From Nitrospira sp. (GTDB lineage: Bacteria; Nitrospirota; Nitrospiria; Nitrospirales; Nitrospiraceae): a stretch of 64,000 nt of DNA. The DNA lies in NCBI GenBank assembly GCA_018242665.1, contig JAFEBL010000012.1, positions 124,001-188,000 on the forward strand, read 5' to 3'. Positions 56,188 to 60,192 of this stretch are shown piece by piece (positions within the stretch are counted from its first letter, which is position 1; every line of letters begins with the position of its first letter). A program made the position numbers and the translations under genes. The notes below the pieces were generated by a model. It ran no database searches. It was not told the origin of the DNA and saw nothing but the letters and a program-made list of their open reading frames with translations.

Positions 56188-56919
56188 TTATTTCACGACC
56201 CACACCCGGTAGCTTTTCGCGTTCAGAGGTTTGGTAATCTTCAGCGTGCCCACTTCACCGGGATTCATCACATCATCGCCTGTCGCGGTTTTTCTTGCCG
56301 GATGTCGGCTGCTCCGGACCAGCACCCCCTGTTCATCGTAAAAATCCACCATCACGTCAGCTGATTCGCGAAGCCCCCCTTGATAGGCGGTTCCTAGCCA
56401 GTCGAGGCGCTTGAGTGCTTGATACGTGATGACCAAAGTGCCGTCCGTGTCTTCTCTGGCGCTGAGGATCTTGAGCGCCCGATTCTGATCCAGGGCCTGG
56501 TCGGCGTCGCTCACGGTTTGCGCCAGGAGTACCCGATCGACGGCTTCTGCATGGAAAAGCGCCTTGACCTTGCAATAGACCGTGCGGCCTTGCTCGCTGT
56601 GTTGCACAATTTGTTGGTCCGAGACATGTTGCGTGGCCAGTGTGTGAACCAGCCGATGAAAGACCGTTGAATCGACCAGCGCCGCGGTGCGTTCCTTCAC
56701 CGCCGCCGAGTTGCTGACGGCCTGATGCAGCGCTTGCGTACAGGCATGCTGCTTGGCCTCGGCGAGCGTTTCCGGCTGATGCAGCGCGTAGCGATAGTCT
56801 CCGGTGATTTCGACCGGATCCTTGTCGACGGAGGCTTGGGCCGGTGCGAGCATTGCGAGGGAGTGCAGCGTCAAGGCGAACAGCGTGCCGCCACCTGTGA
56901 TAGCCAGCCATGGAGTCAT
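56188..56919 (-). CDS. Exported hypothetical protein, 243 residues
   Basis: A protein with a Sec signal (cleavage about APAQA). The N-terminal half contains ITGDYRYALHQPETLAEAKQ, typical of proteins with an outer-membrane or lipoprotein-associated repeat. The C-terminal half is beta-rich (ADVMVDFYDEQGVLVRSSRH). Two Cys residues (HACTQ and VYCKV) could pair. A GAGGAGGT ribosome site supports the start at 56919. No confident family is recognised. Confidence 0.7.
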   Translation of the reverse strand: MTPWLAITGGGTLFALTLHSLAMLAPAQASVDKDPVEITGDYRYALHQPETLAEAKQHACTQALHQAVSNSAAVKERTAALVDSTVFHRLVHTLATQHVSDQQIVQHSEQGRTVYCKVKALFHAEAVDRVLLAQTVSDADQALDQNRALKILSAREDTDGTLVITYQALKRLDWLGTAYQGGLRESADVMVDFYDEQGVLVRSSRHPARKTATGDDVMNPGEVGTLKITKPLNAKSYRVWVVK

Positions 56920-57021
56920 CTGAACCACCTCCTCGCAATCGCACGGCGTACCGGCGGAACACAGGCGCCGCATGTTCTGTGAAATTATGCTACCACGCGT
57001 AGGGAATGGCGGCAATGCGGC

Positions 57022-57809
57022 TTACCTGGGAAGGGCAGTCAATGCGGCGACAATGCCCTGAACGGTCAACGGGGCATTGCCCTCTGACCGGTTGTTGACC
57101 AACACGTACGGCACGGTGTGCTGCGAAACTGCGGTGTGGATGCGGGACGCGGCTTCCTGGCGCATCTGCGTTTGAGCGGTGACGATTTGGTTGTACGGGG
57201 CATAGCGTTGGACGGCCGACGCATACGGCAGCCCGAGGGGCGTCAGTAGGCGCATGACAAAAAATGAGGCGGTGAACCGTTCCTCCATGAGACGATGTTG
57301 CGTGAGCAGCGGAGTCATGCCGGTCCAATGATTGTAGGCATGCGCTATGCGGAATTGCCGCAGCATCTCCCGATAGCGCGGGCTGAGCATCGCGGGATTC
57401 CTTACCTCCACCGCATAGGGATATCCGGGAGGGAGTTTCGCGAGGAAGCCGTCCAGTACGTCAAGGAATGGCTCCGGTTCGAGCCCGCTGCGCTGAAACT
57501 CAAAGATGAACGGACCCATGCGGCCTGGGAGGCTTTCGATGAACGGCTGCAGCACCACGTCCTGACATATGCCGACGCCGAGAAATCGCGGATTCGCCTT
57601 GCCGGCTTTGCCGCTATAACGAGGTACGTTGGCATAGATCGGAATGGTGAGTTCATTCCACACTTTGGAGCAGAAGTGAAAATCGGCTGCAACCTGCGCG
57701 GCGTATTGCGCGAGTTGGGAGAAACGCTCGGCGGCGTAAGCGCGGTGGTAGACCTGCCCCTGCCATCCTTCATAAGCCTAAGAACTGGTTCCGAAACGGA
57801 CAGGCGCAT
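57022..57809 (-). pseudogene. DUF72 family gene interrupted by an in-frame TAG
   Basis: The C-terminal 213 residues from a GTG at 57663 read as an intact DUF72 domain: GPFIFEFQRSG, YPYAVEVRNPAM, and VPYVLVNNRSEGNAPLTVQG. The same frame continues upstream as RFGTSS-TAG-AYEGWQGQVY. Family members have Trp at the TAG position (57778-57780), so a TGG-to-TAG change is likely. No ordinary start is present in that frame near the AAGGAG site; the ATG at 57809 is in another frame, which suggests a one-base loss as well. A shorter protein from 57663 would lack the first strand of the TIM barrel. Confidence 0.75.
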
Positions 57810-57930
57810 GATCCGTGTGGAGCTCACTCCTTCGCGGTGCGGTGCATGTGCCGGATTGTATCGCAACCCTGCGGAAAAACGTAGGATGCCTTGACTTGAT
57901 GGAGGTCTTCACTCACACTCGCACGACACT

Positions 57931-60192
57931 ATGTACGACGGCACTGAGCAAGATCTGCTTCGCCTGCTCGCCTCACGAGCCGGTATCGCTGCTGACTATC
58001 ACGACATCGCCGGTACGCTGCACATCACGAGCGACGAGACCCGTCGCGCGATTCTCTCCTCCATGGGGTTTGATGTGGGCTCGCGCGAGTCGCTGGTGCA
58101 AGCCCTCGCCCAATGGGACGAAGCACCCTGGCAACAGGCCTGTGATCCCATTCTCATCCTTCAACAGGGCTATGGCCCCGCATCCTGGACCTGCCGCTTG
58201 ACGGTCGAGGCCGGTGAAGAACCGCTGGCAGGTGTGGCCTGGCAATTGACCGACGAAAAAGGCGTCACGATTCACCGCGGAGAGGCAGGGCCGGGCCTTC
58301 TCCCTCAGGAGGTGCGACTTGTATCGGAACAGCGGATGATTCGCGTTGAGCTGCCGCTGGTGCCCGATCTGGCGCTCGGCTATTACGATCTGTCGGTTGC
58401 GAGTACCGGATGTGCGGTATCGACAAAGGGCACTCTACGTATCGTCGTGGCGCCCGCCCATTGTTACGTGCCGGAGGGGCTTGCGCAGGGGCATCACGTC
58501 TGGGGCCTCGCCGTGCAACTCTACGCCGTGCGGTCTCGCACCAATTGGGGTGTCGGTGACTTCACGGACCTCGCCCGGTTGGTGGAATGGGCCGGTCGCG
58601 AGTTGGGTGCCGGCATCGTGGGGCTGAACCCGTTGCATGCCCTCAAGAATTCACGCCCGCATCATCTTAGTCCCTATTCGCCGACCAGTCGCCTGTTTCT
58701 CAACGAACTCTACATCGATCTTGACCGGCTGCCGGAATATCACGCGTCGGCTGAGGCGCAGCGATTGAGACAGAGCGCCGACTTCCAACAGACCCTGGAG
58801 CAGGCGCGCACATCCGATTTTGTGGATACCGAATCCGTGGCTCGCGCAAAACGGACGATGCTGGATCTGGCCTATCGCCAGTTCCTCACCGACAATTACG
58901 CGGGCACGGAGCCTTCGATCCAGCCTACGAGCGCCCGCGGGTGGCTGCTGGAACGGTTTATTCGCGATGAAGGGGAATCTCTGGAACGCTTTGCGGTGTT
59001 TCAAACGCTGGATGAAGACCGGCGCTTGATCGAACAAACCCAGAAACTGTGGCCTGAGTGGCCCGCCCAGTATCGCCATGCCGAGTCTCCGGCGTTGCGG
59101 GAGTTTGCTCGACGCCATCGCAAGCGGGTCCGCTTTTTCCAGTACATGCAATGGATCGCCGCGGATCAGCTCAGGGCCGCCAATGCGCGAGCCGAACAGG
59201 TGCAGATGGCGGTCGGGCTGTATCCCGATCTGGCGTTGGGTAGCGACCGGAACGGAGCGGAGGCCTGGATGCTGCAGGATGTCCTGGCGCTAGGCACGGA
59301 TTGCGGGGCGCCGCCGGATGCGTTTGCCCCGCAGGGCCAGAATTGGGGATTTGCTCCCTTCAATCCGCTGCGCCTCAAGGCGACGGGGTACCGATCGTTT
59401 ATCGAATTGTTGCGGAAGACGTTCCGGCAGGGCGGAGCAATCCGGATCGACCATGTGATGACCCTGTTCCGCCTGTTTTGGGTCCCTCGCGGGATGACCG
59501 CCGCGGCGGGCGCGTATGTGCAGTATCCGGCAGAGGATCTGTTGCGGCTTCTCGCGCTGGAAAGTCTGCGCGCGCAGACGCTGGTGATCGGAGAAGATTT
59601 GGGGACGGTGCCTGACTATGTGCGTGAGCAGCTGGCGCGCTATAAAGTGCTCTCGTACCGGGTGTTGTACTTCGAACGAAACTGGGACGGGTCGTACAAG
59701 CATCCGTCGGCCTATCCCGATCAATCCCTCGCAGTTGTGACGACTCACGATTTGCCGACGCTGACCGGCTATTGGATCGGCGAAGACATTCGCTTGCGGG
59801 CCAGGCTCGGCATGTATGAGAGCGACCAGGCGGTGCAACAAGCGTTCGAGGACCGGGCCCGGGACAAACACCAGATTCTGGCTGCGCTCAGCGGAACGGG
59901 CCTCTTGCCGGCTGGCATCAGCGACCAGCCGGATCAGGTTCCGGCCATGACGCCGGATTTATGTCGGGCGATTCATCTGTATCTGGCGGGCTCACCGGCC
60001 TGGGTCGTGATGGCGAACCTGGATGATCTGATCGGCGAAGTGGCCCAAATGAATCTCCCAGGGACCGTTGATGCCTATCCCAACTGGTCGCGCAAACTGT
60101 CACTGTCGCTGGAGGACCTCCAACGGGATGAACGGATACACTCTCTCGCTGCAGCGGTACGAACGCTTCGGCCCCCTGCCGCCGCGAGCTAG
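57931..60192 (+). CDS. malQ: 4-alpha-glucanotransferase
   Basis: Transfers alpha-1,4-glucan chains in glycogen and maltodextrin metabolism. The 753-residue GH77 enzyme has the N-terminal helical and beta domain of long bacterial MalQ. Its catalytic regions include NWGVGDFTDLARLVEWAG, HHLSPYSPTSRLFLNELYID, AIRIDHVMTLFRLFWVPRGM (nucleophile Asp) and GEDLGTVPDYVREQL (acid Glu). The final Asp is in TTHDLPTLTGYW. With the GH15 protein and zwf it suggests use of stored glucan. No clear ribosome site is visible before the ATG. Confidence 0.94.
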   Translation: MYDGTEQDLLRLLASRAGIAADYHDIAGTLHITSDETRRAILSSMGFDVGSRESLVQALAQWDEAPWQQACDPILILQQGYGPASWTCRLTVEAGEEPLAGVAWQLTDEKGVTIHRGEAGPGLLPQEVRLVSEQRMIRVELPLVPDLALGYYDLSVASTGCAVSTKGTLRIVVAPAHCYVPEGLAQGHHVWGLAVQLYAVRSRTNWGVGDFTDLARLVEWAGRELGAGIVGLNPLHALKNSRPHHLSPYSPTSRLFLNELYIDLDRLPEYHASAEAQRLRQSADFQQTLEQARTSDFVDTESVARAKRTMLDLAYRQFLTDNYAGTEPSIQPTSARGWLLERFIRDEGESLERFAVFQTLDEDRRLIEQTQKLWPEWPAQYRHAESPALREFARRHRKRVRFFQYMQWIAADQLRAANARAEQVQMAVGLYPDLALGSDRNGAEAWMLQDVLALGTDCGAPPDAFAPQGQNWGFAPFNPLRLKATGYRSFIELLRKTFRQGGAIRIDHVMTLFRLFWVPRGMTAAAGAYVQYPAEDLLRLLALESLRAQTLVIGEDLGTVPDYVREQLARYKVLSYRVLYFERNWDGSYKHPSAYPDQSLAVVTTHDLPTLTGYWIGEDIRLRARLGMYESDQAVQQAFEDRARDKHQILAALSGTGLLPAGISDQPDQVPAMTPDLCRAIHLYLAGSPAWVVMANLDDLIGEVAQMNLPGTVDAYPNWSRKLSLSLEDLQRDERIHSLAAAVRTLRPPAAAS

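Follow-up and report, generated by a model that had tools for sequence, protein, structure and literature searches.

A probable recently inactivated DUF72 gene beside malQ in a Nitrospira genome

The locus

The window, a stretch of 64,000 nucleotides of Nitrospira DNA, contains a DUF72 gene that sits on the chromosome, flanked by malQ and a conserved 275-aa gene. The host genome assembly is a draft (4.06 Mb, 57 contigs, 99.9% complete), and the DUF72 site lies in the interior of a 195-kb contig. The features of the locus are as follows.

57931..60192, plus strand: malQ, 4-alpha-glucanotransferase (GH77), intact (Pfam E 3e-117), a genus-conserved neighbour whose own stop is TAG
57814..57819, minus strand: lost start (lesion 2); in the DNA alignment the close relatives' ATGATG is CACACG (or AC-ACG) here
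57781..57798, minus strand: N-terminal codons CGT TTC GGA ACC AGT TCT (RFGTSS), match to relatives retained
57778..57780, minus strand: TAG (lesion 1) at the invariant Trp of RFGTSSWAYEGW
57717..57718, minus strand: junction of a 102-nt in-frame deletion (lesion 3), joining ...CGTTTCTCC to CAACTCGCG..., with 34 residues gone including FRTVGIDHTFYRPA
57022..57777, minus strand: residual DUF72 open frame, 251 codons and then TAA (stop at 57022)
56188..57015, minus strand: 275-aa ORF downstream of DUF72, intact, a genus-conserved neighbour

The order malQ, DUF72, 275-aa gene is common to genomes of the same genus. The 275-aa ORF, for which a Pfam search gave no match, is listed from a TTG codon, and its relatives suggest a later ATG start.

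DUF72 (PF01904) is a family of putative TIM-barrel proteins with no assigned function. The residual 251 codons match its profile with E = 1.2e-20 and 74.9 bits (gathering cut-off 25.3), and thus belong to the family by gathering score. The match covers only profile positions 28-212 of 217. A complete domain has an N-terminal GTSxW motif and a loop ending in (F/Y)Y; here the Trp is TAG and the loop is deleted. The window sequence is the remnant of a family member, not an intact member. It is also the sole DUF72 match in the genome, the whole assembly having been searched without finding a second, intact copy.

Three lesions in the DUF72 gene

We extracted 14 malQ-linked DUF72 loci of the same genus and aligned them with the window. 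In the minus-strand frame RFGTSS is followed by TAG and then by AYEGWQGQVYHR...; the frame after the TAG runs on through 251 codons to a TAA. The first-pass annotation, made from the letters of the window, had described an amber codon in an RFGTSS-TAG-AYEGWQGQVY frame, had proposed a TGG-to-TAG change at a conserved Trp, and had suggested alignment to DUF72 homologues of related genomes as a check. The codon is real (57778-57780), and that alignment bears out the change: the motif at the same locus in the relatives is (V/I)RFGTSSWAYEGW, with TGG where the window has TAG in all 14 Nitrospira relatives, which also possess 34 extra residues.

The annotation was likewise correct that the closest ATG (57809) is out of frame, but the one-base loss it offered as a second lesion does not stand. 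Close relatives begin ATG ATG GAC CTC GCC...GTC CGT TTC GGG; the remaining relatives begin ATG AGC AAC..., with an unchanged codon count up to RFGTSS. In the same frame the window reads CAC ACG GAT CAT GCG CCT GTC CGT TTC GGA, and both ATGs are absent. The ACG at 57814-57816 is in frame with RFGTSS and aligns to the second ATG of the close relatives, and a Shine-Dalgarno-like AAGGAG (57827-57832) is retained 10 nt ahead of it. A start at ATG 57809 followed by a frameshift ahead of RFGTSS is ruled out, since the relatives' start aligns to AC/ACG in the RFGTSS frame. No frameshift is required, because the start ATGs themselves have been lost while ACG remains in frame, and ATG 57809 is a chance out-of-frame codon, not the ancestral start.

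The third lesion, which the first-pass annotation did not mention, is a clean deletion of 102 nt (34 codons) that begins some 20 codons past the TAG and keeps the frame. The gap falls between ...AAERFS and QLAQYAA..., where a close relative has KDSLAEYAAYAPGGPPLFRTVGIDHTFYRPATPA. Of 155 columns invariant among 13 relatives, 19 lie in the deletion and 16 more, the Trp included, are changed.

These lesions bear on the possibility that the DUF72 gene is in truth intact and was misread or misassembled; the first-pass annotation had raised a sequencing error. In a draft of 57 contigs a lone TGG/TAG difference could be an error. However, the TAG is accompanied by the loss of both start ATGs and by the deletion, at a site well inside its contig and with intact genes on both sides. 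Error cannot account for three separate lesions that include a clean loss of 102 nt, and we regard it as extremely improbable.

The deleted segment

An AlphaFold model of an intact relative has low confidence (pLDDT 54) and was taken for the order of secondary-structure elements only. Its predicted secondary structure places helix 29-36 and strand 46-52 in the part removed by the deletion. The deleted VGIDHSFYRPAS segment aligns to VELNFTYYTQPS of TM1631 (PDB 1vpq, Thermotoga maritima) in a weak profile alignment (E 0.43), in which the TM1631 stretch opposite the deleted segment reads NFTYYTQPS. Both TM1631 and the window gene fall in Pfam DUF72, and the weak alignment extends over the N-terminal GTSxxxxxW motif and the xxYY/xFYR loop; TM1631 is distant, however, and the loop is missing entirely from the window copy. 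TM1631 has a predicted function only, namely endonuclease-IV-like DNA binding, and its Asn44-Ser52 loop with Tyr47 and Tyr48 is the proposed DNA-binding loop (PMC3828134). The deletion takes a predicted strand of the barrel and, to judge from this weak alignment, the counterpart of the TM1631 loop proposed to bind DNA. Families such as DUF724, which appear in literature results for DUF72, are unrelated.

Could the shortened gene still be translated?

If Trp or another residue were inserted at the TAG and translation began at ACG, the product would be a working DUF72 variant 34 residues shorter. The in-frame deletion, the AAGGAG kept upstream of ACG and the unchanged dN/dS (below) all agree with such a product. 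But TAG is a normal stop in the window, where it ends 13 of 43 long non-overlapping ORFs, malQ included, and the deletion takes out a highly conserved motif. None of the 40 tRNAs found in the genome carries a CTA anticodon, although this draft set has gaps and includes neither a Trp nor an Ile tRNA. Anticodon arms of the Trp type with CCA or CTA were also sought by pattern; the single 13-base match (contig C14, CTA) is not a tRNA. These results speak against amber suppression, though not finally, given the gaps in the tRNA set. Recoding would be marked by a suppressor tRNA or by a conserved in-frame stop; the TAG occurs in none of the 14 relatives, and the incomplete draft set holds no CTA tRNA. 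The earlier suggestion that the stop is read through is not supported, in view of the missing start, the deleted barrel strand and loop, the ordinary use of TAG and the lack of a CTA tRNA among those found. Readthrough of the window TAG is very unlikely, and the chance of a working variant made by readthrough and ACG initiation together is close to nil.

The tRNA-Trp and tRNA-Ile missing among the 40 tRNAs of the draft are probably in assembly gaps.

A shortened protein of 213 aa could instead begin inside the frame, for instance at GTG 57663, and be kept by selection; the downstream frame is open and its dN/dS is low. Against this, the product would be without the first two barrel strands and most of the third (in the low-confidence model of the intact relative, predicted strands 10-13, 46-52 and 76-81), and by eye no Shine-Dalgarno-like sequence lies ahead of GTG 57663. 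Long-term use of this GTG is unlikely because the codons from the TAG to the GTG are also well conserved; this conservation suits a recent lesion better than prolonged use of the internal start. We give a protein of this kind a very low probability. There is only a very slender chance that either route, ACG initiation with amber readthrough or an internal GTG, still yields a reduced DUF72 protein under selection from the shortened gene.

Selection and the age of the loss

We fitted a codon model to eight genomes and used malQ and the 275-aa gene, both intact, as controls. For the residual DUF72 codons, omega on the window branch was 0.117 compared with a background of 0.107; the corresponding values were 0.087 and 0.082 for malQ, and 0.132 and 0.113 for the 275-aa gene. 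The residual DUF72 sequence still bears the mark of selection, with normal constraint lasting until not long ago. A two-phase model, with constraint followed by neutrality, fitted best without a neutral phase. At 2 log-likelihood units (interpolated) it excludes a neutral phase longer than about 6-7% of the branch, which corresponds to about 35 neutral substitutions, a number that leaves sufficient room for the observed lesions. Unchanged dN/dS is compatible with recent loss and, taken alone, would also fit a still-working gene. A still-working gene is disfavoured because the lack of a standard start, the nonsense codon and the deleted core element occur together.

The neutral rate on the window DUF72 branch was 2.5-2.8 substitutions per codon, compared with 1.45 for malQ and 1.75 for the 275-aa gene, and the window DUF72 has no stable place in the gene tree. 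The window may carry an older allele that a more distant lineage contributed through recombination, although this is not needed.

We conclude, with a probability of about 0.93, that the sequence between malQ and the 275-aa gene is a recently inactivated DUF72 pseudogene produced by ordinary gene decay. Compared with intact orthologues it carries disabling mutations (start loss, nonsense codon and 102-nt deletion). The first-pass annotation had named a recent pseudogene among its readings; alignment to relatives supports that reading, and the branch dN/dS fits it. On the other side, the window branch shows no rise in dN/dS, so that substitutions alone cannot show decay, and the gene retains a 251-codon frame with no further stop, a deletion that is in frame, and AAGGAG. 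The locus probably yields no functional protein, and its lesions are probably young. On this reading an ancestral protein of roughly 300 residues lost its start through a change of ATG to ACG, the adjacent ATG having gone as well; the TAG arose at the invariant Trp, and the in-frame deletion cost 34 residues. The locus is probably now drifting toward the gene-absent state. Annotation of this genome should record no functional DUF72 protein and should not treat the amber codon as a case of recoding.

Recurrent loss in Nitrospira

DUF72 relatives in a named genome collection are nearly all from Nitrospira, and a plasmid search found none on plasmids. Among the matches listed in nine relatives, the residual frame shows 64-73% identity to malQ-linked copies over query residues 10/11-250. 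Two genomes, G006 (apparently the MAG Nitrospira sp. CR1.2, WIAG01000084) and G016 (apparently 'N. defluvii' NOB1, WYAX01000012), have copies in the same malQ/275-aa slot, with about 72-73% amino-acid identity to the window over the shared part. Unlike the window copy, the malQ-linked Nitrospira copies have an ATG start, the TGG codon and the 34 additional residues.

In 13 genomes of the genus, malQ and the 275-aa gene adjoin with no DUF72 between them, a gene-absent state seen at this site in about half of the Nitrospira species sequenced. G003, G007, G008 and G021, four genomes of the genus, gave no PF01904 match. The copy in G014, like that of the window, is a decayed malQ-linked DUF72; unlike the window copy it has an intact start and TGG, and a deletion within the C-terminal half shifts its frame. 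Because of the absence in 13 genus genomes and this independently frameshifted copy, DUF72 loss or decay is recurrent in Nitrospira, and the window is one more instance. Repeated loss of malQ-linked DUF72 suggests that many species of this genus of nitrite oxidisers can do without its function.

The independently broken copy of the other Nitrospira is located at G014:C44:26998-31130 (L077 / L024). Split, truncated or stop-bearing DUF72 copies occur at G020:C9:315723-316386 (L020, L025), G020:C32:146935-147294 and G022:C2:346903-347394.
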